NCBI GenBank assembly: GCA_013350285.1
Contig: JAAXWG010000002.1
Span: forward strand, 62,001 to 126,000
DNA length: 64,000 nt
Reading direction: 5' to 3'
DNA from: Candidatus Altimarinota bacterium
GTDB lineage: Bacteria; Patescibacteriota; Gracilibacteria; BD1-5; UBA6164
Positions within the stretch are counted from its first letter, which is position 1, and the number at the start of each line of letters is the position of its first letter. The translations under genes were made by a program, and so were the position numbers. Shown in pieces: positions 1 to 53,999 of the stretch. The notes beneath the pieces were generated by a model that worked only from the letters and a program-made list of their open reading frames with translations, made no database searches and was not told the origin of the DNA.

Positions 1-1236
1 TTTAAAAATCTCTAAAATATCTGCTTTAAAATTTGGATTTTTTTGTAAAAACAAATATGTTGCAAGTCTTGCTTCTTCCTCTTCTCCTACACACTCAAAA
101 GGTTTAAAATCTTTCCATCACCAAATTTCCAAAAATAAATTTTTTAAATCCTCTTTTTGATAAAGCTCTTCTCAGAAAATTTGCATATTTTCTTCATCTG
201 TCAAAAAGGGTCTCAATATACTATATACAAAAACACATTTAGGGCAAGATTTACACCAAAGATTTTGATTTTTTTCTGTTTGATTAAGCTTAAAATTTGC
301 ATTACAACTACTAAAAGAAGAAAAATATTTTTTCCCTTTTTCTACAAAAATTGATGCTATTTTTAACTCATACCATCATCTTAAAAGAGAAAAATATTCT
401 ATTTCATCTGATATATAATTTTTTATATATTTTCTCAATTTTTCTTCAAAATCAATACTTTTTGAATACTGATGATTTACTTCCAAATCTCAAAGAAAAG
501 TATTTCAAATATTTGCTGATTTTTCATTACTAAAAATTATATTTTTATAATCATAAAGATAAGCAACAAAAAGACTTACAAAAGAAATAATTCCAGAAAT
601 AGGAATATGTCAATTATAATATCCTTGTTTTGTAAGTTTAAAAAGATTAGGAGAAAGTTCTCTTTTTATAAAAAGAGCTTCTTTCCTAAGAATATCAAGC
701 TGTGCATTTTTTATAATATCTCTTTTTCAGAAAATAAATGGAGTATAATTTTTATTATTTTGCTCAAGTATTTCAGAAGAAACAATACTATCTTTTCCTC
801 ATCCTATAGGAAGAAGTGATTTATTTTGCAAATTTTTTTGTAATTTTTTTTGTAATTTTTTTTGGTGTATTGATTCAAAATTTCCATATTCCCTATAATC
901 AAGTTGATTTCTATAAAAAAATTCACCAAGTCATTGTATGTAAAAATTTTTCCAAAAATCTTTTTGATATTCATCAAGAAATCAAGTCTCAACAATAAGT
1001 TTTTTTGTTGGGAAAAGCTTATAATAACTTACTCATAAAGCAAGAGAAAGTGAAAATAAAAAGGTTTCATATTCTTGCAACTCTTGATTTTTTCTTGTAA
1101 TCTCAAAATTTAAATCATAAAAATATATTTTTTCTTCAAAAAACTCTTTTTTATCAAAACTGTAAAAAAAAGAAGCTCTTCAAGTTCCTATATCAAATTC
1201 AAATCACTCAAAATAAAATGTTTCAAAATTTTGCAT
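1..1236 (-). CDS. murL: MurL-like UDP-MurNAc-L-Ala-L-Glu epimerase (3' end beyond window)
   Basis: MurL epimerises the terminal L-Glu of UDP-MurNAc-L-Ala-L-Glu to D-Glu in the cytoplasm, an alternative to glutamate racemase plus MurD. The sequence shows an ATP-binding P-loop-like stretch SLLPIGGGKDSIV (about residues 140-152; one glycine is UGA). A C-terminal cysteine cluster follows: FSSCNANF, then LWCKSCPKCVFVYS (about residues 310-335). The pair of a GGKDS loop and a WCxxCPKC cluster is what I know from the MurL family. 412 codons are visible and the stop is not. The start is the ATG at 1236, giving MQNFETFYFEGFEFDIGTG. Downstream neighbours are outside the window; upstream is a same-strand lytic transglycosylase, so a cell-wall context is plausible. 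The substrate is inferred from the family. Confidence 0.72.
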
Positions 1237-1321
1237 AAAAAATCATCACTATTTAATACTTGTGATGATTATAAAAAATTATTTTTTTTTTAAAAGTATA
1301 TTTTATAAATTCAAAAAATAT

Positions 1322-2440
1322 TTATGTTATATTAGGGGTTGTAATTCATATCAAATTAGGATTAATTCAAATATTTAATTGAACCTTTTCGGTAAAAACT
1401 TTATTAGCAAATGCATTTACACTCCATGCATGCTTAATTGTTTCACTACTAAAAGCTTCTCATTTTAATACTTTTCATGGTCAAGCATTATATGCCCTAT
1501 TTATATTATCAAAATCCCAATTAGGATGTTGACTTTTTAGCATAAAAAGATAATAAGTTCCTGCAAAAATATTTTCTGCACTGCTTCAAGAAGGTATATT
1601 ATTTCTTTTTATAGCTTCCCTAAAATCTTTATTTTTTCTAATACCAGCAAGTGTTCAAGGCATAACCTGCATAAGTCATTTTGCTCAAGCTCAACTTATG
1701 CTTCATTTTCTTCAAGTACTTTCTACTGATATTTTTGCAAGTATATGTGTAGTGGAAATTCAAAATTCTTGAGAAGCTAATTCTATGGCTTTTTTTTCAT
1801 TTTGAGAAAGATGAGTTAAATTGTTTATTATTTTGTATACATCATAAGCTCCTATTTTTTTCGGAATCTCTGATAATCAAATATTAATTGAATCTTTAGG
1901 AAGTTCCCAAGTTGTAGGATCAGAAGGATTAGGGATTTTTGTTTGAGGGAAAGGAGTATCTAAATTATCTATACCAAAAGGTAAAAGGGGATTTAGATTT
2001 AGTTTTTGTTTATTAATAGAATTGTTTAAACTTTCTATATCTCCTTTTGTAAGCTTTCATGTATTTTTTCCGTATTGATACATCTTAAAAAATGTTTTTG
2101 GTCAAAATTTACCATCTATATGTTCTTTTAAATCATACCAAAGTTCTTGTTGTCTCTTTTTTCTATTTTCTAAACTAAGTTTATTGAAATTTTCATGATA
2201 ATCTTTATACTCTGGAAGTTCTTTTATAGCTAAAATTATCATTTCTCTTGTAAGTTCTCATCTTCTTATTTTACTTCTTTTCTTTAAAATTCCTTTTTCT
2301 TTTTCATAATCTTTTTTTAAATCGTTGAGTTTTTTTAGCTCATCTGGAGTTATTTTATCATCATCAAACATTCCATCAATAGCTTGTTTGAAATTATCTG
2401 ATTTTGTAAATTCTATTTTTTCTGGATTTTCTGCTCACAT
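1322..2440 (-). CDS. SLT-type lytic transglycosylase
   Basis: A 372-residue protein with a C-terminal soluble lytic transglycosylase (lysozyme-like) domain, which would cleave the MurNAc-GlcNAc bond of peptidoglycan. Visible motifs: the catalytic-Glu region VESTGRKGSISGAG near residue 238, then GLMQVMPGT, then AYNAGPGKVLKG near residues 325-335. This is the usual E-S / GLMQ / AYNAG order of the family. Several of these glycines are UGA. The N-terminal 220 residues are charged and match nothing I recognise. There is no obvious signal peptide at the ATG used (MGAENPEKIEF), so export is uncertain. It lies 85 bp from the MurL-like gene on the same strand. Confidence 0.85.
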
Positions 2441-2605
2441 AATTCTAAAATTAATATTATATTACCTCTATGTTAGCACTTTTCTCTAAAAAATACAAAA
2501 AAATGCTATAAAATTTGCAAAAAATAAAAGAAATTATATAATCCTCTCCACAAAGACTAGTGTATTTTCTGGTTTTTGATTTTATTACTTAAAAATACAT
2601 AAATT

Positions 2606-2875
2606 ATGGCAGTTACAAAAGAAATAAAGAAAAAAATTATTTGAGATTTTTCTCAAAAAAAAGATGATACTGGTTCTCCTGAAGTGCAAATAGCTATCCT
2701 TACAGCAAAAATAGAAAATCTAAAGGCTCATCTCCTTGATCATAAAGGAGATAATCATTCAAGAAGAGGAATTCTCCTTATGGTTGCTAAAAGAAGAAAA
2801 ATGCTTACTTATCTAAAAAGAAAAAATCCTGAAAAATATGATGAAGTAATTAAAAAACTAGAAATAAGAAAATAA
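2606..2875 (+). CDS. rpsO: 30S ribosomal protein S15
   Basis: S15 binds 16S rRNA helices h20-h22 and nucleates the 30S platform. The 89-residue length is exactly typical. The conserved core [13 protein letters not shown] begins near residue 20, followed by [16 protein letters not shown] and [12 protein letters not shown]. The family glycine or glutamate after IIK is encoded by UGA (KKIIGDFS). The start ATG at 2606 gives [11 protein letters not shown] strong hairpin-T terminator follows directly. It stands alone on the plus strand between minus-strand genes, with its promoter presumably in the 165 bp upstream. Confidence 0.97.
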
Positions 2876-2880
2876 AAAAA

Positions 2881-2913
2881 ATCCGAAAACTTAAAAGTTT
2901 TCGGATTTTTTTT
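2881..2913 (+). terminator. rho-independent terminator of rpsO
   Basis: Perfect stem ATCCGAAAAC / GTTTTCGGAT with a 5-6 nt loop, followed by a run of eight T. The stop codon of the convergent RelA/SpoT gene lies in the T-run. Confidence 0.9.
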
Positions 2914-5125
2914 ATGATTCTATTTTCAAAACTTGAGAATCAAGAAGCATTTCTCAAAAATGAAATTTTATCCTTTCTATAAGTCTCTCTACTATGAGAT
3001 AATCATAATCTGGAATTTCTAATATAAATGAAAGAAGTGTTTTTTCTTCTGCCTCTTTTTTAGAAGAAATTTGTTCTACATTTATGTGCATGGAATACAA
3101 AATATCAGAAATTTCTTTTAATACTCATATTTTGTTTTGAAAAAGAAAATTTATATGAGCAGTTATTGAGTTTGTCTCTTCTCATTTTATATAAGCTGGA
3201 AGAAGTCTTTCCTTGTTTACATTTTCTAATATTTTACAATCTCTTTTATGAAGAGTAATAATTCATTTTGAATTGATATGAGCTACTATTTTACTTGGAA
3301 TTTTTCTTCTACAACAGTAACAAAGCTTATAAGGAATATTTTTTTCCCCCCCAATAATAATTTCTTGATTTTCTTCTGATGATTTTATTTGATTTTCTTT
3401 TGTTCAAAAATTTTCTTTGTTTCTTGTCGAAGGAATTTTTTTATTTTGTGCCTTTAAAATCCTTCTCATAAGTGCTCAAGGAGAAAGGCTAAAATTTCCT
3501 ACTTGTTCTAAAATAAAATTTCTTTCATCTACACTGTTTTCTCTTCCATCAAGAATTTTTAAAATACTTAAATCTTTATCAAGTATTCAAAGTCATGCAT
3601 TTTGTAAATATTTATTAACTATTTCTTTTCCTCTATCTCTATTTTGATATTTATTATCCTTTCTGAGATAAGCCTTTATTTTATCTCTTGCTTTTGCTGT
3701 TTTTACAAAAGAAAGCCAAAAGGGACTTGGATTTCTATTTTTATCTATTATTATTTCTATAATATCACCATTTCTTAGTTCTTTATCAAGAGGATATACT
3801 TTTCCACTTACTTTTGCAAGAGAAATATGGTCTCATAACTCTGTATGGATAGCATAAGCATAATCAACGGGAGTAGATCATTGAGGAAGATTTATAGAAT
3901 CTCATTTAGGAGTAAATACAAAAATTCTATCTTTAAAAACATCTATTTTTATAGAAGTCATAAAATCTTGATTTTCTAAACTTTCTGTAATATCTTTTAA
4001 ATCTTTTACCCATCCTATATCATGAGCTACCTTACTTCCTCTTTCTTTGTATTCAAAATGAGCAGCAACTCCAATATCAGAATATTCTTTCATTTCATAA
4101 GTTTTTATCTGTATTTCCGTCGGTTGTTTTCTATAATTTTTTAGAAGTCATATAATAGTTGTATGAAGACTTTTATATCCATTTGGCTTTGGAAGAGCTA
4201 TATAATCCTTGAATCTATTTGGAAGTGGAGTCCAATAATTATGTATCACTCATAAGGCTTTGTAGCAAGTTGTTACATCTTTTACTATTATTCGTATTCA
4301 AAATAAATCATAGAGTGATTTTATGCTTTCATATCCTTTTCTCTTCATTTTTTTATAAATTGAATAAATAGATTTTACTCTATAATCTATTTCAAAATTT
4401 TTTATTCATCCATCTATAAGAACATCTTTGATTTCTTTTTCTGCATTTTTTGAAAAAGAATCTATACTTTCATTTAATTCCGCCATTTCTTTCTTTATCT
4501 TTTTATAAGCTTCTGCTTCTAAAATTTTAAAACATTCTTCTTCTAAGGCATTTTTTAGACTATAAAGACCGAGTCTATCAGCAATAGGAGCATAAATATT
4601 TAATGTTTCTAAAGCTATTTTTTCTCTTTTATCTCTTTTTGGATGATAACGAAGAGTCTGCATATTATGAAGTCTATCAGCTAATTTAATAAATACAACT
4701 CTTAAATCTTGAGCCATAGCAACAAACATTTTTCTTAAACTTCATACCTCTCTTTCTTCTCAATGATATCTTACTTTTGAAAGTTTTTCCATCCCTGCAC
4801 AAAGAAAAGCTACTTCTTCTCAAAATTCATTTTTTATGGTTTCTAGAGAAACATCTGTATCTTCTATAACATCGTGTAAAATACAAGCTTGTATAGTAGG
4901 AATATCTGGTTTTAAGGAGAGTAGATGAAAGGTTGCTCAAATAGGATGAACTATATAAGGATCTCAAGAATGTCTAAATTGTCATTCATGAGCTTGTTTT
5001 GCATAAGCATAAGCTTTAAGTATCTCTTCTTTTATTGTTTCTTCAGAAACATATTTTCACAAATAAGAAATTACTTTCTTAATTATTAAAAAAACTTTTT
5101 TATCTATTTTAGTATAATCATACAT
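2912..5125 (-). CDS. rsh: RelA/SpoT-family (p)ppGpp synthetase/hydrolase
   Basis: A 737-residue long RSH enzyme of the stringent response, which makes and degrades (p)ppGpp from GTP or GDP. Order of domains: HD hydrolase domain with HDVIEDT near residue 86 and [15 protein letters not shown] near 135-150; synthetase domain with LFGIRIIV, the nucleotide-binding YKSLHTTI near 315, and [12 protein letters not shown] domain starting VFTPKGDSINLP near 407; a conserved Cys-region [12 protein letters not shown]; and a C-terminal ACT-like segment. Both HDxxED and the synthetase motifs are intact, so it is predicted to be bifunctional. The ATG at 5125 (MYDYTKIDK) is the first in frame. The gene converges on rpsO and diverges from the prepilin gene. 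Confidence 0.95.
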
Positions 5126-42728: not shown

Positions 42729-43484
42729 CTATTTTATATCTCATTTTTCAACTATATCCAGAAGCAAAACTTTTCCATTTTTTATAATTTTTAGTTTTGC
42801 ATACATTCCTCATTTTCTTATTTTTTCTTCAAGAGGAATTCCTGTCCCTTCACTTACAAAAAACTTGTCAGCACTGAGTGCTCTAAAAGTCAAAAATTTT
42901 TCACATATTCATACATCTTCTATCACTCATTTTTGGTTTCCATCTATTTTTCATAATTCATCTACGATAGTTATATAACTAAGAAATTTAGAATTATTAT
43001 TTGTATAAAAAGAAACCCTCTGTCATGAAAAATATGTTTCTTTTTTATTTTCAATTTCACTACACCAATCTTGAGCATATATATATTCCTGATTATTATC
43101 TCCTCTTATTTTTATATTTCTAGAAGATTGAACTGAAGGATTTTCTATCTCTATAAAATCCCCTTCTTTTGGTTTTTCTGTAAGTATTTTTTCTACTCAA
43201 ATAATCAGATTATTTACTTGATTTGGTATGATATAAAAAGAGGAGCTAGCATAGCCAAGTGGTAAAGATATTTTTTGTATTTCTGTTGCTTGTATTTCGT
43301 TTAATTTTAATTTATAAGCAATATTAACATAATCTCCACGAAAAATATCCACAGGATCATATCCTGTTACTTCTATATAAGCAGTCTTTCAAGTAGTTTT
43401 TATGTACTCATAATTTCCTATAACTCAAAAGAGAATAAAAATTTGAAAAAGTACAAAAAGAAGAAAAATATTTATTTTTTTCAT
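42729..43484 (-). CDS. GDYXXLXY-domain membrane protein
   Basis: 251 residues. An N-terminal membrane helix (INIFLLFVLFQIFILFGVIG) precedes VTGYDPVDIFRGDYVNIAYK, the D-P-x-D-x-x-R-G-D-Y motif that names the GDYXXLXY family. The second half repeats a similar beta unit (SEGTGIPLEEKIRKGGMYAK). This family commonly sits next to a DUF2157 protein, as it does here (10 bp). The function is unknown. Confidence 0.85.
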
Positions 43485-43493
43485 AATCAAAAA

Positions 43494-44708
43494 TTATTGG
43501 TTAATATTTTTTAAAACTCTTCTTCTGATAGATTCAGACAACCATCCAACTCCAAGACATACAATTCCTCAAGTAATAAAAACAATTGCTCATTCCATCT
43601 TACTATTTTCCAAAAATGCAAAATATCTTCCTATAAGATAAATAGCAAAAAATATCATAGAAAGATTTATATATCCTGCTTTTTCTTTTTTTATTCACAA
43701 AAATACAAAAACTCAAACTATAGCAAGGTAAACGAGGTTCATCCCTACAACATAAAAATATCCCCAAAAATCAACAAAAATCATTCATTGAGGCTCAAGT
43801 CCATTATATTGTTGTCTTGTTAAGCTTGTATTAAAATAAGCAAAAAATATCAAAGCAAGAACTATAATACTTCCAAGATAAAAAGGTAAATCTCTATCAA
43901 TTTCAATTTTTTTGTTTTGAATATTTGATATTCCTACTCAAAAAACTCATAATACAAGAAAAATAAGAGTTATGATAAGAATATTTATATTAAATTCTCA
44001 GTAATTTCCATACATCCAGAAACTTTTGAAAGTAAAGGCAAAAAGTCCTCAAAGAAGTCAAACAATTCCAAGAGCAGAACCTACGAGTCAAAATTGTTTA
44101 TAATCAAATTTTTCATAATATCTCACAAGAGAGAGATTAAAGAAGCTTATCACAACAAATAAAAGTGCTATAAGAAATCAAGAAAGAGTGTAATTTTCTC
44201 AAATATAGGAAAAGATAAATGCATAGACCAAAACAAGACCAAGAGAAAAAATAGAAGTATATCTCGTATAAAAAGCAAGAGGAATGACTCAAATCATCCA
44301 AAGTAAAAGTGCTGAGGAATAATTTCCTCCTACATTGTATATTTGTCCGAGAAGAAATATAGCAACTCCATAGCTTATACTTCAGAGAAAAATAAGTGAG
44401 TGTCCTGTTTTTTTAAATCATTCTTTTTTGTATGCAAAATAATATCAAACTCCATAAAATAAGAGAGTGATAGCAATAATAAATATTGTTTTTACAAGAC
44501 TTGTAAAATTACTCCAATTTGATGCAATAAGTAAAATAAGCCCAAGACCAATAGCAATTGCTCCTATTGTCATAAATATCATCATAAATCTTCCTCCTCT
44601 ATTTTCTCGTGAATCTTTTTGATACCAAGCCTCTATATTTTGTGCTATTTTCTCATCTATGATATTGTCTTTGATAAGCTTTTTCAGGTCGATTTTTATT
44701 TCGCTCAT
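43494..44708 (-). CDS. DUF2157-family membrane protein
   Basis: 404 residues. The cytoplasmic N-terminus (IDEKIAQNIEAWYQKDSREN) matches the DUF2157 start, followed by about twelve hydrophobic helices, the first being FMTIGAIAIGLGLILLIASN. The ATG at 44708 (MSEIKIDLKK) is preferred over an in-frame ATG 30 bp earlier because it matches the domain start. It pairs with the GDYXXLXY gene. The role is not established. Confidence 0.85.
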
Positions 44709-45243
44709 AAAAAAGTATTTAATAAATAATAATCCCATTATAAGCTTTTATTCTCTTTTTCAAATTTAAAAGTTGAAAAGAGAAAGTGAAAAATATTTTT
44801 GACAAATGTTATTTTTTGTAAATTTTAATAATTTATTATGAGCTTTCTCCTCGTGTCATTCCTGCGAAGGCTTAAATCATTATATAAAAAAAGGACTTTG
44901 TCTATTTTAATAGATTCCTAGCTTCCTAGGAATGACAAAAAAACAAAAGTAGAAATTTATTATGGGTTTTCTCCTCGTGTCATTCCTGCGAAGGCAGGAA
45001 TCTATAAGATTAAATCATTATATAAAAAAAGGACTTTGTCTATTTTAATAGATTCCTAGCTTCCTAGGAATGACAAAAAAACAAAAGTAGAAATTTATTA
45101 TGGGTTTTCTCCTCGTGTCATTCCTCTGCACTCGTTCCGAGTATAAACTCCAGCAGGAATCTATTTTTTTATTCCTTATAAAAATCATAAAAATGGAATT
45201 ACTTTTTTATAGATTCCTAGCTTCCTAGGAATGACAAAAAAAA
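44709..45243. repeat. tandem palindromic elements alternating with decayed CRISPR repeats
   Basis: No gene. Three palindromic units with ends GTCATTCC and GGAATGAC lie at 44855-44936, 44979-45074 and 45117-45235. Between and after them are 27-nt fragments of the CRISPR repeat (44944-44970, 45082-45108) and the partial repeat 45244-45274. A still more decayed piece lies at 44834-44850. The fragments have lost the TCTAC arm (AAAAC instead), so the crRNA stem cannot form. The interior of the units varies in length, and unit 3 has a different insert. Confidence 0.8.
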
Positions 45244-45779
45244 CAAAAGTAGAAATTTATTATGGGTTTTAAATACTCAAAATAAGAGTTTAAAAAACTC
45301 AATCTACAAAAGTAGAAATTTATTATGGGTTTTAAATATTCCTTAAAATAGAGCTAAGAAAAACAATCTACAAAAGTAGAAATTTATTATGGGTTTTAAA
45401 TAACTGAAGAGGAACATATAAAACAATATCTACAAAAGTAGAAATTTATTATGGGTTTTAAATTGACAAGTATTCTCAAAAAGAATAGCTATCTACAAAA
45501 GTAGAAATTTATTATGGGTTTTAAATTGAGATAATTTAATTTCTATTATTCCTATCTACAAAAGTAGAAATTTATTATGGGTTTTAAATTTATTCTGCTT
45601 GATTTATTTCATTAGAATCTACAAAAGTAGAAATTTATTATGGGTTTTAAATAAAAATATAAATATTTAATATTATCTCACATCTACAAAAGTAGAAATT
45701 TATTATGGGTTTTAAATTATTACAGATTGAGAAGAGTATATTAATCTACAAAAGTAGAAATTTATTATGGGTTTTAAAG
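45244..45779 (-). CRISPR. type V-A-like CRISPR array, eight spacers
   Basis: Eight 36-nt repeats at 45302, 45366, 45428, 45491, 45554, 45617, 45682 and 45744, plus a truncated one at 45244-45274. On the minus strand they read ATTTAAAACCCATAAT then AAATTTCTACTTTTGTAGAT, with the Cas12a-type stem TCTAC/GTAGA and a TTTT loop at the 3' end. Spacers are 26-29 nt. Transcription on the minus strand, as for the effector gene, puts the leader at 45780-46008. The leader-proximal repeat differs only in its first base. Repeats are identical within the array; decay is confined to the far end. Confidence 0.97.
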
Positions 45780-46008
45780 GGCGATTTTTTGTAGAATAAG
45801 CCAAGAAGATACAAATAATTTATCTTGCAAAATTATGACTTTTGGCTTATTCATAGGTTTGTCTAAAAATTAAGACTTAGGTTTACATTTTTTAAAAAAA
45901 CACACAACGGAACTTCCACTTTTAATAATTTTTTATTAAAAGTTTTAGATTATTTTAAAGAGCTTTTTGTATAAAAGTATAGTATAAAAAATAGACAAAA
46001 AAGCAAAT
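45780..46008 (-). promoter_or_regulatory. probable CRISPR leader
   Basis: A 229-bp gene-free AT-rich stretch adjoining the intact end of the array. It contains an 11-bp inverted repeat GAATAAGCCAA (45794-45804) / TTGGCTTATTC (45842-45852), the first arm only 14 bp from the first repeat. I cannot mark a promoter with confidence. Confidence 0.6.
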
Positions 46009-46359
46009 TTATTTTGCCTCTTCCTTATTTTTGTAATCTACAATTTTTTGGATCAAATCATAGGGAATTTTTTTATCCAAAGAAAACTGAATAGTTCATT
46101 TTGAAATTTTGAAATCTTGTAAATCTGACTTAAATTTTTCTATGGTTTTTGGTCATGGAAAAAATCAAATATGGTCTTTAAAAGCTCCAAAATGCACAAA
46201 GTTTTTTCATTTGTGTTTAAAAGTAGGAATTCAGTAATTTATGCTTTGTGTAAGTTGTGGATTTGTCTCACTAATCAGTTTTTTGATATTTTCAAGAATT
46301 ATTTGAATATCTTGTGGAAACTGGGAAATATAATCTTGTATAGTTTGTGGGGTTTGCAT
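46009..46359 (-). CDS. DUF1801-family protein, copy 1
   Basis: 116 residues. TPQTIQDYISQFPQDIQIIL, QLTQSINYGIPTFKHKGKNF, VHFGAFKDHIGFFPGPKTIE and SKGTIQFSLDKKIPYDLIQK match the DUF1801/YdhG frataxin-like fold. The biochemical role is not established. It lies between the CRISPR leader and a second DUF1801 gene (6 bp gap). Confidence 0.85.
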
Positions 46360-46365
46360 AAAATT

Positions 46366-46761
46366 TTATTTAATATTTATTTCAAGCCAATCTTTTAGGA
46401 TTTCCTTAATTTTTTCAGAGTTTTTTAGCACTTTTTCTTTGTTTTCAAAGCTCATATATCCTCTGATATCTGAACTCCAATAAATAAAATCTGAGTGTTT
46501 GTCATATACTGGACTTCCCTTTTTGTTTTCTTTGATAGATGCTCAAAAGTGCAAAATAAGTTTCACGATATGTTCTTTGTTTAGCACATTAAAAGTTATT
46601 CTATCAAGTCAATTATATTCATAATTTGGAGCATTCCATTTGATATTTTCTCATAAATTTTGCTTTGTTTCCAAAATAAGTTTTCTCAAAGTTTCAATGA
46701 TTTCTTTTTGTTCTGGTTCAAGAGAATCAAGGAAATTTTGGAGAGTTTTATATTTTTGCAT
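46366..46761 (-). CDS. DUF1801-family protein, copy 2
   Basis: 131 residues. MQKYKTLQNFLDSLEPEQKE, GENIKWNAPNYEYNGLDRIT and KEHIVKLILHFGASIKENKK follow the DUF1801 pattern; it shares the fold but only low identity with copy 1. Its start codon lies 25 bp downstream of a lone CRISPR repeat (46787-46822), which would therefore be in its mRNA leader. It is the first gene downstream of the CRISPR effector on the minus strand (about 200 bp). Confidence 0.82.
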
Positions 46762-46786
46762 TTGTTTGGAGGTTAGAGAGGTATAT

Positions 46787-46822
46787 ATCTACAAAAGTAG
46801 AAATTTATTATTGGTTTTCAAT
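46787..46822 (-). repeat. orphan CRISPR repeat
   Basis: Minus-strand reading ATTGAAAACCAATAAT then AAATTTCTACTTTTGTAGAT. This is the 36-nt array repeat with only two changes, both outside the hairpin, so the crRNA handle is intact. No second repeat flanks it. The sequence after the handle is ATATATACCTCTCTAACCTC, then the DUF1801 start. Confidence 0.93.
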
Positions 46823-46965
46823 ATTAATTTATTTTTTAATTTTTATTTATGAAAATTGAAGTTTGAGAAAATTTTTCTAAAATTTTAGCAAAATTGCCTC
46901 AAAAACACAAAATAATAATAAGTTATCTAATAGTTTTTATGTATTACTTGATGATTATTTTTATT

Positions 46966-49900
46966 TTACTTAATTTTTCATCAAATATTATAAGATCCAT
47001 TATCATCTCAATTTTTAATTAAATCTAAATTTAGTCATTCTTTTTTATTGTTCTTAATATTTATTGAATTATCTTTTCAAGAAACAAATCAGCATTCTTT
47101 ACAAGTTATTACATTGTTTTCTCTCTTAATATGTTTTTTTCATCATTTTCAGCAGATAGGACACTTTGAACTTGTAAACTTTGGGCTTATAAAATAAATA
47201 ACTCAAAATTGTTGATATTGGTATTTGTATTTTTCTTTCAATAAATCTGTATAATTTCTTACATTTCAAAAACTTGGAACTAAATGTAAAATTCATTTTT
47301 CAACAGAAATTTTAAATAATTTTTTAAATAACTGCATTTCAAAAAAATGGTAAGTTCAAACTCAAGCTAAAGCCAAATTATCTTGTTTTTTTAAATCCAT
47401 TTCTTCATCAATTTTGGAATTTAGTATTGAATCTCAAGATAATCAATCTTTTGAAAAATACCAAGCATTTGATAAATCTTCAATTGCAATTTTTACTTTA
47501 TAATCATATTCTTTCATTAAATGAACTATTACTCAAATTATATTTGCAACAACTCATTTTTTCAAATCTTCACTTGCATCAAGTTCAGTTGTTAGTTTCA
47601 TTAAATTTTGTTTTTCTCATTCTGATAAAGTTTTATTATTTTTCAATTTTTCATAATTTTCAAACATTTCTTCAAAAATATTCATCGGTAAGTCTTCAAA
47701 ATGATGTCACTCTTTATATGGTGTTATTAACTCTTTTATATTATTTTGTCTTTCTTCTTTTGTTTTATATTTATTTAAAAAACTTAAAACTCATTCTTCA
47801 TTGGAAGACATTTGATATTGAAGTTTTCTAATATAAGCTAACTGCTTTAATTTTACATTTTGCTTATTCGTTCAAGTTAGATTTCAATTTTCATCTTTTG
47901 CTTCAAATAAAGATAAATCAACTAAATATTTATTTCATTCTTTGTCTGACTCAACTTTTAAATTTGTTAAATCCAAAATTCATTCTGTTCTATTATTTTT
48001 ATATTCCCAATTTTTAGAATTATCATTAAAATGTTTTGTATAAATATCAAAGTTTTGAATAACTCATTTTTTATTTGTAATACACAAAGTTGCAAGTTGT
48101 TTAATTCATCTATCAATTCAAAAAATATAATAATCTTCTAAACTATCAAAATATGGATTTACTTTTTCTTTGTTAAATTTTTGAACTGATTCATTTTGTT
48201 TTGTTTGATCTATTGAAATTTTATTTTGTTCTTTTCTTGTTGTGTAATCATTGTTTTGTGGAATATACTCAACTCAAATATTTGCAAGTAATTGTAATCT
48301 TCAAAAACGATTTATAATTCAAGATTTGTTTGGTTTTAAATTTTCTTCATTTGGTTGTCTATAAAATATACTAAACTCTGGATGTATTCTATATCAATCT
48401 CATAAAAATACTTTTTCAAAATTTTTTGTAAAGTCATTTTTATTTTCCTCTTTTTTGCTAGAAATATCTTGATTTATCAATGGAAATAATAAACAATCTT
48501 CTTTATGTATTAAATTCTCTAAATTTTCTTTTGAAATAGAGGTTTCTATTAATTTATATCATTTTTTATCAACTTCTTTTTCAATCTTTTCATAAGTATC
48601 ACAATTATCAAAATTCCATCAAAAATCTTTCCAATTTTGTTCTACTGCAATTTGAGAATTTATTAAAGAATGTTTCAAATGTTTCAAAAACTCTTCTTTA
48701 TATCAAACCCATTTTTCATTTTCATCATATATTGAAACTTCTCTATGTTTATATTGAAAATATCAATGAAATTTCTTTGAATCTTCTCATAAAGGATTTT
48801 TTATAAATTTATTGAGTGCTTTTGATGTAAAAGAATTTATTTCAAAAACTTTATATTCTCAATTTCATAAATTATTTTTTATTTTTTCTCTTGTATCTTT
48901 TCCGTTAAGTTTTAGAGTTAAAATATATTTGTCTTGATTTTTATCTTCAATTATTATTCAATAGTCAGTAATTTTATTTAGTTCATTTTCTTCTTTTAAT
49001 CATTCCCTTATTGAAGCCAAAGTTCTTCAAATAAAACTTGCTATTCAAATATGAGAATCCTTTTTATCAACTAACTTTTGTGTTAAATTTCTATATTTAT
49101 CAATTTTATTTTTTTGTTGTCATCTTAGAAGTCATAAAGATTGCTTTGATTTTGTAAAACTATCAAATATATTTAGAATATTTTGTTCTTTAGTATCTAA
49201 ATTTTTAAAATACTTTTTTTGTAAGTCTTTAATATTTTTTCTTTCATCGGTGTTTAAATTTAAGTATTTTATAATATTTTCAACTTCATTTTTTTTATTA
49301 TTTTTTTCTATTTCATCTGATAATTCTAAGAAAGTTTCTTTAATACTATCAATAATTTCTTTTTCATTATTTGGTTTTCAATACTCTATTGTTGCTAAAT
49401 TTTCAGCAATAAAAAGTAAATTTGCATATAAATTAAAACTTGAATTTCAAACATTTATATTAAAATTATCATTTAAGTATTTTTCACAAACATTTTTTGG
49501 AAAATCAACATCTCTTTTTAGACTTCTTGCTAAATTTTCCCAAGAATAATCAAAAGCTGATTTAATAGGATATTTTTCAAGTGAAAATTTTTCTTTATCT
49601 TTGCATTCAAGATAATCTTTTCAAATATCAACAGATTTTCAAAGTAAATCAAATTTATTTAAAATATCTTCATATTTTAAATTATAATTCTTCTCTAAAT
49701 ATTTAGATAAATTATATTTTACCGAAAAAGGAATTGTTTTTGGTTTAAAAAGTTGTATTAACTCAATAGAGTAAGGATTTTTTGAATTATTTAATAAATA
49801 TATTTTTTCTTTTGAATCTTGTTTTAAATAATTTTTTATATCCTCTTCGCTTTTCTTTAAAAACTCTATTATTCATAAATCTTTAATTCATTCTTTGATT

Positions 49901-50733
49901 TCTTTATCAAAATTATTTGGTTTTTGAACTGCTGTATAATAGTTTAAACTAACTTTTCAATAAGGAACTTGACTTCAATTTGCTTCAAAGTATTCTCTAA
50001 TTTCTTTTCATAAATCAAGCAAATCATTAATTTCTTTATTATTTTCATTTCAAGAAAAATCATTCACTCTTTTAATATCTCAAGAATTTTCTTTTTTTCA
50101 TGTTTCAAATTGTATAGATTTATTAAATAAAGGTTGTAAATATTCTTCACTTATTTTTAACAGTTGTAAAAATACTTTTCTAAAATCTATTAAATCAGGT
50201 TTTGTATGAGAACTATTATTTGGATTATTAACAGCATTTAGATATTGTTCTAATTTTGGTTTAAAAACATTTATTAAATAATCACTTCTTGAAATGATAT
50301 TTCACCAATAATTTATTATTAATTCTTTATTATATCTTAATGATGACAACTTAATTTGATTAGCTTGTGGTTGTTTAACTCATTTTTTATCTTTCTTAAA
50401 AGCATCAAATTTTGCTTTTCTTGCAAGTATTTTATAATAATCTTTATTTACAGATATTAAATCATATCTTTCATACATATTCTTCCAGTCTCATAACTGA
50501 TTTTCTAATCAAGAAATAAACTGATTTATTTTATCAATCAATTCTTTTCTAGTATCAAATTTTGATTTATCTTTTGAGTTTACCTCTTTTTTTATATTCT
50601 CAAAAGATTTATTTACTAAATCACTAAATTCTATATGAGTTTTTAATTCTCATTTTTTATTTGGTTGGGTAAGCCCAAACCTCACAGTTTTCCTAACCTC
50701 ATACAAATTTTGAATATTTTTACAACTTTCCAT
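46966..50733 (-). CDS. cas12a2: type V CRISPR effector, Cas12a2-like RuvC nuclease
   Basis: 1255 residues. The N-terminus NLYEVRKTVRFGLTQ matches the Cas12a/Cas12a2 start. RuvC-I is YYIFGIDRGIKQLATL (Asp874), RuvC-II KVKIAIEDLSNAWYF (Glu1085), RuvC-III IKNGDDNGSYNIG (Asp1243). Between II and III is a zinc ribbon: CPICGK (Cys1191, Cys1194) and TCKECGF (Cys1211, Cys1214). Gaps of 211 and 158 residues fit Cas12a2 (215 and 150 in the Sulfuricurvum protein, from memory) and not Cas12a (about 85-93 and 250-270). The family uses V-A-type crRNAs; RNA recognition triggers collateral cutting of RNA and DNA. UGA is a frequent Gly codon, so the gene is adapted to this host. The start ATG directly follows a terminator-like hairpin. 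Confidence 0.88.
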
Positions 50734-50738
50734 AATAA

Positions 50739-50781
50739 AAAAGATTATGAAATAAACTATCGTATCATAATCTTTTTTATT
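50739..50781 (-). terminator. terminator between miaB and the CRISPR effector
   Basis: AAAAAAGATTATGA / TCATAATCTTTTTT (14-bp arms) with a 14-nt loop and, on the minus strand, T6. Its end lies only 5 bp from the effector ATG, so it may also act on effector expression. Confidence 0.8.
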
Positions 50782-50821
50782 TAAAAATCCAAGTTATTTA
50801 TACATTTTCCAAATACAAGCT

Positions 50822-52840
50822 TTATTTCCCTTTTTCCTCTACTCTCTCCCCTTTCAAAACCCAATCATCGAGAGACACTATTTTGACTTGCACCATATCG
50901 CCTATGTGTATGTCAGGAGATGTATCAAAAAACACTTCTTTGAAATTTCTTGTCCTTCAAAAAAATTGATTTTTTGCCTCTCAGACGACAAAAACTTCTT
51001 CTTGTCTTCCAAGCATAAGCTGGTTTCTCTTTTGGAGAGATTTTTTGAGAGCATTATTGAGTATATGCCATCTCTCTGCTTTTATCGTATCTGCTACATC
51101 ATCAGGATAAAGACGACTTGCAAGAGTTCAAGGTCTGACACTATATCTTGCAATATAAGCAAAATCAAATTCACATTCTTCAAAAGCTCTCAAAGTTGCC
51201 AAAAAATCTGCTTCTGTCTCACCACTAAATCCAACAATTATATCTGTAGAAATAGCAAAAAGTGGGTCTTTTTTTCTCAGATACTGTATCATTTCTTTAA
51301 AATCTTCATAAGTATGCCTTCTATTCATCTTTTTGAGTATCGTATTACTTCCCGACTGGAGAGCAAAATGAAGATAATTACAACTATGCTCAAGCTCAAA
51401 ATGTGCATCCAAAATATCATAAGTCATATCGTGCGGATTGCTTGATGTAAATCGTATTCTCTCAATTCATGGAATTGCATTTACTTCATTGAGAAGCTCA
51501 CGAAAAGGAGATACAAAACTCAAAGAATCTATTATGGTGTCTATTTCTTCCCAACTTTCTGCACGAAAATGATTTTTGTTATCAATGACTTCTTCCCTAT
51601 TCCACGGCTTTGAAAAAATAATAGTTTTCCAATCTTCATGTTTTTTATAATCAAGGATTTGATGAGGATTATCTTCTAGCACGACATCTAATTGTATTTT
51701 TTTTGCAAGGATACTTTTTTTATCTTCTCCGTGCTCAAGAGTAAAAAGGATTTCTTCAAAAAAATCATTTCAAAAAATATTTTCAAGATATCTAAGAGTT
51801 CCTTCTTTCATAGCAAGAGTTCTTGAAGTAATGATAAAAAGTTTGTGTCCTTTTGTTTTCCATTTTTTGAGTATTTCAAGCACTCAAGGGAAAAGTTTGA
51901 GTTGCATATAATTTTCTTCAAAAAAACAAAACCATTCTTTTTTCAAAACTCCATCTCCATTGAAATCAAAATCTTTTAAATCTTCATATTGAAAGTTTTT
52001 TTGATATTTCATATTATAATTTTCTATGACATGAGATTCCCAACATTTCACCAGTACTTCATCTATATCTATCCCTATTTTTAATATTTTTTGTCCTTTC
52101 CATTTACTTTTTTCTTCATCCCACAAATCTTTTTGTGCTTGTTTTCCATAACTATTGACATTTTGTCCGAGCAAACTTATTTCTTTTGCTCCATTTTTTA
52201 TAGCTTCCCTACATTCACTCAGTATTTCCTCTTTGTCTCTGCTGATTTCACGACCTCTCGTATATGGCACAATACAATAACTACAATAATTATCACATCC
52301 TGTCTGAATAATAATAGATGCTGAATTTGGATTTTCTCTTTGTTGTTTGAGTTTGAGATAATCATCATATTTGTCTTCTTGTCCAATTTTTTCTCAAAAA
52401 ATATGGGAAAGGATAAAAGGAAGATATTTTATTTCTTCTATTCTAAAGGTAAAATCCAGATTTTTAAGACGAGGAAAAAGCTTATCATCATTATTAAATA
52501 TTTCACTTATTTTTTTAAGTGCTTCTATTTTTTTTGCTGTTTCTCTTTTTTGCTGCTTTTCTCAATATTTTTCATTTATTCAAGTTTTTCTCACCATACA
52601 TCCTGTGATTCAAATTATCGTCTTTTTTCCATTTTTTTGCTGTTTTTCAATATCACGAATCATACTAAAAACTCTATCTTCTCATTTTTTTCTTACACTA
52701 CAAGTATTAAAAATAATGAGATCTGATTGCTCAAAATCTCAAACTTTTAAAAATCATGATTGTAAAAGAAGCATATTAATTTTTTCGCTATCAGCTTCAT
52801 TCATCTGACAACCAAAAGTTTTAATACAATATTTTTTCAT
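50822..52840 (-). CDS. miaB: MiaB tRNA methylthiotransferase with an inserted HAD domain
   Basis: MiaB adds 2-methylthio to i6A37 of tRNA. Its usual parts are present: N-terminal UPF0004 domain ([43 protein letters not shown]), radical SAM cluster [66 protein letters not shown], and a C-terminal TRAM domain. At 672 residues it is ~220 too long. Between NVNSYG and the [13 protein letters not shown] segment lies a HAD-type domain (about residues 250-430): [10 protein letters not shown] (motif I), FIITSR (motif II), [11 protein letters not shown] (motif IV). Both junctions are stop-free even in the standard code, so the fusion is not an assembly of two frames. Confidence 0.94.
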
Positions 52841-52848
52841 ACATAGCT

Positions 52849-53421
52849 TTATTTATCTTCATTTATTTTACTCACTTCTGGCTTTTCTTGTCCCATATAT
52901 TTACTTCCTTGTCTTTTATCATAAGGAATTTCTACTTCTCAAAGCATTGTTTGAAAAGCAAATTGACCTATTCTCATTCATGGATAGAGAGCAATAGGCA
53001 CTTCATTGATATTTGTTATCTCAAGAGTAATAGTTCCTTCAAATCACGGATCAATAAATCCTGCCGTTGAATGGATAATAATTCATAGTCTTCCAAGGCT
53101 ACTTCTTCACTCACATCTCGCAAGTAAATCTTTTGGAAGCTTCATTTTTTCTATTGTTGATCCCAAGATAAATTGTCTTGGATGAAGGATAAAAGGAGTA
53201 TTTTCATCCAGCTCAACTGTTTGAATATGCTCTGGAGCAACTCATAGTTTTGTGTCAATCAAAGTAAGATTACTTCTTTTATAATAACGAAAAACTTTCC
53301 CAAGACGAAAATCAAGACTTGATGGTCAAATCTGAGAAAATATATCATATTTGCTTTCCGTCTCCATTACGAGACTTCCAGACTCAAGACGAGCTCTTAT
53401 TGCACTATCAGAAAGTATCAT
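52849..53421 (-). CDS. dcd: dCTP deaminase
   Basis: 190 residues. MILSDSAIRARLESGSLVME, GPSSLDFRLGKVFR, LARCEGRSSLGRLGIIIHST and AGFIDPGFEGTITLEI match Dcd, including the catalytic Glu region. It yields dUTP (or dUMP in the bifunctional form) for thymidylate synthesis. The C-terminal segment KRQGSKYMGQ is typical. It lies 8 bp before miaB, so both may be cotranscribed. Confidence 0.95.
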
Positions 53422-53445
53422 ATAAAAATAAATAATAAAAATAAA

Positions 53446-53853
53446 TTACTGTATAGCACCTGTATTTACAATGCTTTTTATGCTTTCTCAAAGTTTATTT
53501 ACATCATTGAGTGTTTTATTGACAGAGTCAACTGTATCTTTGGCTTCATTTACAACTTGTTCTGCTCAAGAAAGAGTACTTCTTACTGCATCTACTTTAT
53601 TTTTTACATCTTCTGATCTTTCAAACATCTGATCTTTTAAATCTCTTGCAGATTCTATAGTATCACTATATCCTTTTAATAAATCATCTGAAGTTGCTGT
53701 TTTATCAAGCCCTGATTTTAAATTTCTTATTTTTTGATTTAATTCTTTCAAGCCAATAAAGCCTCCAATCGTATCAGATATATTTGGTTTTACAAAAACA
53801 AGCATTAAATATACTAAAATAAATATTATCAAAAAAGAAAAAAATTTTTTCAT
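53446..53853 (-). CDS. hypothetical membrane-anchored coiled-coil protein
   Basis: 135 residues. The N-terminal helix MKKFFSFLIIFILVYLMLVF is followed by a soluble helical region with heptad-like spacing (LNQKIRNLKSGLDKTATSDD, AGEQVVNEAKDTVDSVNKTL). No family is recognised. It is 24 bp upstream of dcd. Confidence 0.65.
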
Positions 53854-53926
53854 AAGAAAAAAATAAAGTATAAATTCAATGAAGAAAATATACTTTATTA
53901 TGATAAAAAATCAAATTTAAGTTTTT

Positions 53927-53952
53927 GTCATTCCTATGAAGATAGGAATCTA
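53927..53952. repeat. dispersed palindrome
   Basis: GTCATTCCTATGAAGATAGG then AATCTAT: the same GTCATTCCT...AGGAATCTAT pattern as at 6949 and in the CRISPR trailer. Confidence 0.75.
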
Positions 53953-53999
53953 TAAAAATAGAAAAAATAATCTTTTAAAAAAAATTTGTTGGAGTTTCC

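Follow-up and report, generated by a model that had tools for sequence, protein, structure and literature searches.

The locus described here raises the question of which type V effector family is encoded beside a V-A-type CRISPR (clustered regularly interspaced short palindromic repeats) array in a bacterium that reads UGA as glycine, and what that effector would do once triggered. It lies in a stretch of 64,000 nucleotides from Candidatus Altimarinota bacterium (assembly GCA_013350285.1, contig JAAXWG010000002.1), which is called the window below. The effector belongs to the Cas12a2 lineage, within a reference set holding one named Cas12a2 and no Cas12a4. We give a probability of about 85% to the reading that this effector of a UGA=Gly bacterium is, most likely, guided by the adjacent array, triggered by RNA and acts through collateral cleavage that stops the cell.

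Family assignment of the effector

The effector gene has an open frame with 63 in-frame TGA codons read as glycine and a TAA stop. TGA outnumbers GGA/GGG by 63 to 3 among its glycine codons (63/66 TGA). In the alignment to the solved Cas12a2 of Sulfuricurvum sp. PC08-66 (SuCas12a2; PDB 8d49, 8d4a, and 8d4b), a glycine of SuCas12a2 stands opposite 26 of the 63 TGA positions, compared with 25 of the 1192 non-TGA positions. This homology supports the recoding proposed by an earlier reading made from the DNA letters only (the sequence-only reading). The length of 1255 residues, the triad D874/E1085/D1243, the gaps of 211 and 158 residues and the CxxC-16-CxxC ribbon given there are all exact on the translation and the alignment.

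SuCas12a2 is the closest solved protein, with 40% full-length identity. In a phmmer search against the PDB sequences at E ≤ 1, it was the one distinct sequence matched (732 bits, E 1.3e-218, residues 8-1251 of the window effector), and no Cas12a chain was matched. A profile was built from the window protein, SuCas12a2 and a relative (G103) encoded in another genus of the same family as the window genome. Against the PDB, this profile scores SuCas12a2, itself a profile member, at 2038 bits, and the only other effectors matched are Cas12a3 proteins at 31.6 and 28.1 bits; Cas12a gives no match at E ≤ 10, and no Cas12a4 is among the matches.

The phylogenetic tree is in line with these searches. 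The window protein, the relative and SuCas12a2 form one group (support 96/93), and one branch (100/99) has these three, together with two Cas12a3 fragments, on one side and 16 same-class Cas12a proteins on the other. The tree is unrooted and based on 377 columns; a program warning on long branches joining at the Cas12a3 fragments makes the position of these fragments uncertain. Its references comprise one named Cas12a2 (SuCas12a2), the two Cas12a3 fragments and the 16 Cas12a proteins, with no Cas12a4. The Cas12a rows represent 16 of the 21 genomes matching Cas12a; outside the tree stand G126 (frame with TAA, contig edge), G030, G308, and G313 (below cut-off, partial) and G054 (divergent), and one row (L024) ends at the contig end without the third RuvC motif. 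The protein was thus not found inside Cas12a in the tree that the sequence-only reading had called for, and its membership in the Cas12a2 branch, as proposed there, holds. The fallback of a further, undescribed type V subtype is not needed, as the effector groups with SuCas12a2.

The catalytic region agrees with this placement. The RuvC triad is intact, and its residues align to D848, E1063 and D1213 of SuCas12a2, a triad given in the sequence-only reading and printed identically in PMC9849127. With first and second gaps of 211/156, the relative comes close to the window effector, and so does SuCas12a2 with 215/150. The short first and long second gap described for Cas12a likewise holds on the same-class controls, where the first gap is 85-124 (n=16) and the second 235-284 (n=15 with a readable third motif). 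In Ba1Cas12a3, the reported D712/E1032/D1137 correspond to gaps of 320/105 (PMC12851939). Moreover, the four ribbon cysteines of the window effector lie opposite C1170/1173/1188/1191 of the SuCas12a2 ribbon. The full-length alignment to a solved Cas12a2 therefore puts a predicted ribbon at the place of the Nuc domain, as had been proposed. Ribbon and insert are assigned here from sequence; an AlphaFold2 model of residues 835-1255 with two-sequence input reached a predicted local distance difference test (pLDDT) score of 34.8, too low to use.

Taken feature by feature, the window effector shares with SuCas12a2 the triad, the gaps, the zinc ribbon, the insertion domain and three of four flank-reading residues. 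It differs by about 26 extra residues near 498-525, and its host is UGA-recoded with a genome lacking a Cas12a or Cas1 match. The Cas12a3 proteins (Ba1Cas12a3, PDB 9hlx; 21we) are related effectors triggered by RNA and share RuvC and a zinc ribbon, but they match at only about 30 bits and occupy a separate tree branch, and Ba1Cas12a3 is described with a tRNA-loading domain besides its longer first gap. ApCas12a4, compared by description only, is reported with reduced aromatic clamps. The label V-A2 used in PMC12669027 is taken by us to mean Cas12a2.

Were the effector a conventional Cas12a that targets DNA and has an atypical C-terminus, this would account for the V-A repeat handle, which the Cas12a (Cpf1) proteins of the class share along with the RuvC motifs, and for the two best PADLOC models being named Cas12a; type V-A has also been reported in Gracilibacteria and Absconditabacteria (PMC10746230). 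However, these two models are identical and in identical order for the window effector, the relative and SuCas12a2, and they score SuCas12a2 far higher than the window effector, at 942 and 765 bits. NCBIfam, which includes a Cas12a model, leaves the window effector unmatched at E 0.01, and that model has no match in the window genome. Together with the contradiction by the gaps, the PDB searches and the tree, which refutes an ordinary Cas12a unless the alignment is wrong, this makes such an enzyme extremely improbable.

A separate feature was seen among the Cas12a proteins of the class. Beyond RuvC-II, five of them (L026, L027, L028, L029, and L034; 1187-1247 residues) have two CxxC pairs that are separated by 134-142 residues and surround the Nuc region, an arrangement resembling a Nuc domain inserted into a zinc ribbon. 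It was not seen in the other 11, one of which is cut short.

Array, guides and expected activity

The features of the locus are collected in Table 1. The repeat end forms a hairpin of five pairs, and its handle AATTTCTACTTTTGTAGAT occurs nine times genome-wide at ≤1 mismatch, all within the window locus (eight in the array and one in the single repeat). Handles of the same kind occur in the Cas12a arrays of the class, which were read in 9 of 17 loci, the other eight lacking a usable array by that pattern; the sharing of V-A repeats suggested by the sequence-only reading is thereby borne out. In addition, positions 45243-45967 form a BLAST block with 75% identity to the leader and array of the relative.

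Table 1 Features of the Cas12a2-lineage locus, in window coordinates
Feature	Position	Strand	Details and basis
Cas12a2-lineage effector	46966..50733	minus	1255 aa, table 25; PDB/profile searches, tree
Hotspot, residues 469-529	49147..49329	minus	includes I475 (SuCas12a2 Y465 position)
RuvC-I Asp874	48112..48114	minus	aligns to SuCas12a2 D848
RuvC-II Glu1085	47479..47481	minus	aligns to SuCas12a2 E1063
Hotspot, residues 1084-1218	47080..47484	minus	W1091 and L1114 (cleaved-strand clamp positions), S1102 (SuCas12a2 Y1080), zinc ribbon
Zinc ribbon Cys1191/1194/1211/1214	47092..47163	minus	Pfam Cas12f1-like_TNB, residues 1168-1221; alignment
RuvC-III Asp1243	47005..47007	minus	aligns to SuCas12a2 D1213
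Single repeat, intact handle	46787..46822	minus	143 nt past effector stop, 25 nt before DUF1801 start codon
DUF1801 protein, probably unrelated cargo	46366..46761	minus	Pfam
Second DUF1801 protein, probably unrelated cargo	46009..46359	minus	Pfam
Array leader	45780..46008	minus	conserved with relative in another genus (alignment)
CRISPR array	45243..45779	minus	eight intact repeats of V-A type with eight 26-29-nt spacers, followed by a truncated distal repeat
Degenerate distal array end	44830..45242	minus	truncated repeats interleaved with TGTCATTCC...GGAATGACA palindromes, 124-162 nt apart

SuCas12a2 is described as processing its guides, recognizing RNA with a purine-rich flank, opening its RuvC site, cleaving collaterally and arresting growth (PMC9811890 and PMC9849127). 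By analogy, the window effector would itself process guide RNAs from the eight-spacer array through the hairpin handle. A matching invader transcript with a purine-rich flank would then be recognized through the conserved flank-reading residues, the RuvC site would open, and collateral cleavage would follow until the cell stops growing. Three of the four flank contacts, taken for SuCas12a2 from a figure legend, are retained, K621, N625 and Q681 corresponding to K642, N646 and Q699, and I633 is replaced by H656. RNA triggering is the likely mode of the enzyme, family membership suggests an abortive, growth-arresting activity, and the system is presumably active today.

Whether the system is still in use is weighed by its state of preservation. 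No Pfam Cas1 match was found in the window genome (98% estimated completeness; the profile matched 9 of 14 control genomes), and DUF1801 genes occupy the place where the relative has adaptation genes. Since Cas1 is unmatched and the array end degenerate, while the leader and eight handles are intact, the locus probably retains its guide function, but acquiring new spacers on its own is probably beyond it. The same two defects mean that it may be decaying, and a remnant with an intact effector whose immunity is no longer updated or used would also explain the truncated distal repeats with their palindromic elements and the DUF1801 genes. We regard such a remnant as rather unlikely, since the frame of 1255 codons is intact, as are leader and handles. 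Moreover, the ratio of nonsynonymous to synonymous rates (dN/dS) relative to the G103 effector is 0.29 and 0.21 in two large blocks, which places most of the gene under purifying selection, though as an average over the time since the split.

Beyond the missing Cas1 match and the degenerate array end, several points weigh against the main reading of the locus. The comparison contained a single named Cas12a2 and no Cas12a4, and only one of the four clamp positions of SuCas12a2 is aromatic here (W1091). No protospacer was found in three exact viral-contig scans with spacer parts of 21-22 nucleotides, which covered 2 of the 8 window spacers and 1 of the 28 unique spacers of the relative. The spacers also lack a significant antisense bias, with a purine fraction of 0.460 in 36 spacers of Cas12a2 arrays versus 0.492 in 95 of Cas12a arrays (P 0.21).

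Self-targeting was likewise not apparent, as neither the eight spacers nor the guide of the lone repeat gave a convincing match elsewhere in the window. The best matches are weak, 24/29 for s2 (30 shuffles ≤23) and 22/27 for s4 (shuffles ≤21). If the lone repeat were processed, its guide would run to the DUF1801 start; no target of it was seen in the window. A role of this repeat as a regulator of the effector is not supported, the longest guide word shared within 43000-53500 being 10 nucleotides and lying inside the effector gene. A promoter scan found 56 sites where 50.6 were expected, and the same scan gave no terminator-like site. A palindrome similar to the elements of the degenerate array end is present at 53926-53960.

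Divergent segments and the aromatic clamp

The effectors of the window and the relative are 79% identical in protein sequence overall and about 84-85% identical outside two hotspots (388/464 and 464/547). Within the hotspots, 65 of 127 aligned residues differ in the C-terminal segment (1084-1218) and 29 of 38 in the other (469-529). None of 2000 shuffles was as high in either case, in a test that ignores ordinary regional rate differences and with segment scores chosen after the alignment had been seen. Consistently, dN/dS is 0.90 in residues 1086-1232 versus 0.21-0.29 in the large blocks. The rise comes with a five-fold higher dN (0.42 versus 0.08 in residues 531-1085) and a dS of 0.47 versus 0.38.

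Two comparisons bear on how this change arose. At the conserved codons of residues 1086-1232, 11 of 71 carry synonymous differences, which is below saturation (20 expected, P 0.005); together with the similar dS values, this argues against the segment having come from a distant lineage. Across the same residues, identity to SuCas12a2 is 65/139 for the window effector and 55/134 for the relative, compared with 225/536 and 231/531 in residues 531-1085. The C-terminal hotspot is therefore no less like SuCas12a2 than the rest, and a permanently fast segment is unsupported. The divergence appears to be episodic, falling on the branch that separates the two relatives, whether through rapid substitution or through exchange. 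A burst later than their split, or an exchange with a lineage of moderate divergence, would be compatible with the synonymous differences as well as with the identity to SuCas12a2.

The two hotspots hold all four positions of the SuCas12a2 aromatic clamp, Y465, Y1069, Y1080 and F1092, which are occupied in the window effector by I475, W1091, S1102 and L1114. The alignment over SuCas12a2 1069-1092 is gapless, whereas the Y465 position falls within a loop that aligns poorly, making I475 less trustworthy. The relative has phenylalanine at the 1069 and 1092 positions and serine at 465; its 1080 position is tyrosine if the loop is aligned from the left end, and MAFFT puts a gap there. A preprint reports that the F1092A variant of SuCas12a2 has no measurable kinetics on double-stranded DNA (dsDNA) and a roughly thirty-fold lower specificity for single strands, that Y1069A and Y465A halve the dsDNA specificity, and that Y1080A has no kinetic defect (PMC13232221). 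Stronger effects, of Y1080A on duplex and of Y1069A on RNA, are described in an earlier paper (PMC9849127).

In view of these effects, the non-aromatic L1114 is the change most likely to matter, although the neighboring W1091-Y1092-F1093 may compensate for the aromatic loss at 1114. Because three of the four dsDNA-gripping residues of SuCas12a2 are non-aromatic here, dsDNA shredding should not be assumed for the window effector. With leucine at the F1092 position, isoleucine at Y465 and serine at Y1080, we expect weaker dsDNA shredding than in SuCas12a2, and single-stranded substrates or nicking would be favored. We tentatively propose, as a possibility that we hold with low confidence, that the gripping surface was remodeled in an episode of its own, through fast change or segment exchange, while the reading of guide, target and flank stayed fixed. 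Collateral cleavage would thereby have moved from shredding dsDNA to acting on single strands, to nicking or to some new preferred substrate, and this shift would be independent of those in Cas12a3 and Cas12a4.

The clamp also bears on a second possibility, an RNA-triggered enzyme of the Cas12a4 type that cuts RNA only and spares DNA. According to PMC12851939, RuvC, ribbon and flank-reading residues are retained in Cas12a3 and Cas12a4, with limited conservation of the clamps, and the single aromatic (W) of the window effector would fit that description. However, the aromatics kept in the relative at 1069 and 1092, and perhaps at 1080, suggest that the clamp was lost in the window protein itself and that the loss does not characterize its clade. 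This, together with the 40% full-length identity to SuCas12a2, leaves a Cas12a4-type activity improbable.

If instead the surface remodeling is true, the window effector would be a natural RNA-triggered variant, and the pair would map what decides the substrate. Two enzymes that are about 84-85% identical elsewhere, with divergent clamp segments, offer a clean test of collateral-substrate specificity.

Distribution and relatives

The Cas12a2 lineage is rare in the class, being present in 2 of 353 genomes, the window genome included. Cas12a matches 21 of the 353 at E 1e-10 (17 above the model cut-off), and neither Cas12a2 genome is among these 21. In a draw of 379 genomes across the phylum, the lineage was found in the window genome only. 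Further relatives were found neither in phages and plasmids (tblastn), nor in two small classes (49 and 3 genomes, neither with a known match), nor in scans of genome contigs and viral contigs, which used two to six short peptides and whose silence is weak evidence.

The locus of the relative runs from the effector through a C5 DNA methylase, an HNH protein, Cas4, Cas1 and Cas2 to an array whose intact repeats number 33. Leaving aside repeat copies and short chance matches, it has two blocks in common with the window, namely the effector, at 83% DNA identity, and the leader with the array. As the effectors are 79% identical, compared with 40% for glutamyl-tRNA synthetase and 57-64% for MiaB, a transfer of effector and leader-array between the lineages is likely, judging from these two housekeeping genes.

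In Gracilibacteria and Absconditabacteria, CRISPR immunity is reported to depend almost wholly on type V systems, which are labeled V-A and regarded as DNA-targeting (PMC10746230). The two genomes described here, taken as that group from UGA=Gly, carry the RNA-triggered Cas12a2 lineage instead, so that 'V-A' labels may hide two immune strategies. Our literature searches found no paper on Cas12a2 in Gracilibacteria or the candidate phyla radiation and none for Cas12a, Gracilibacteria and CRISPR combined; a search on Cas12a2 and genetic code returned only two reviews, one about Cas13 and one about genome editing. The protein may already figure in the sequence lists of published Cas12a2-4 papers. 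The window effector adds a member to the known Cas12a2 lineage, in an unusual host and with a changed substrate-gripping surface.

Some minor observations concern the genes around and beyond these loci. The C5 DNA methylase and HNH_2 protein of the relative, located between effector and cas4-cas1-cas2 (L004 8286-10508), resemble a restriction-modification pair inside a CRISPR locus. In the MiaB-like protein of the window (50822-52840), the central part is interrupted by a HAD-like phosphatase domain (Pfam HAD_2, 308-370); the MiaB of the relative lacks this insert, its two halves matching DNA 12 bases apart. In addition, a type V-like effector of about 1000 residues is encoded on the minus strand of L037 (G054:C46:12000-17775; bases 66-3173 of the reverse complement). 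It contains GIDRG, EDLN and a CPECGF ribbon, and matches Cas12a weakly (E 2.5e-14).
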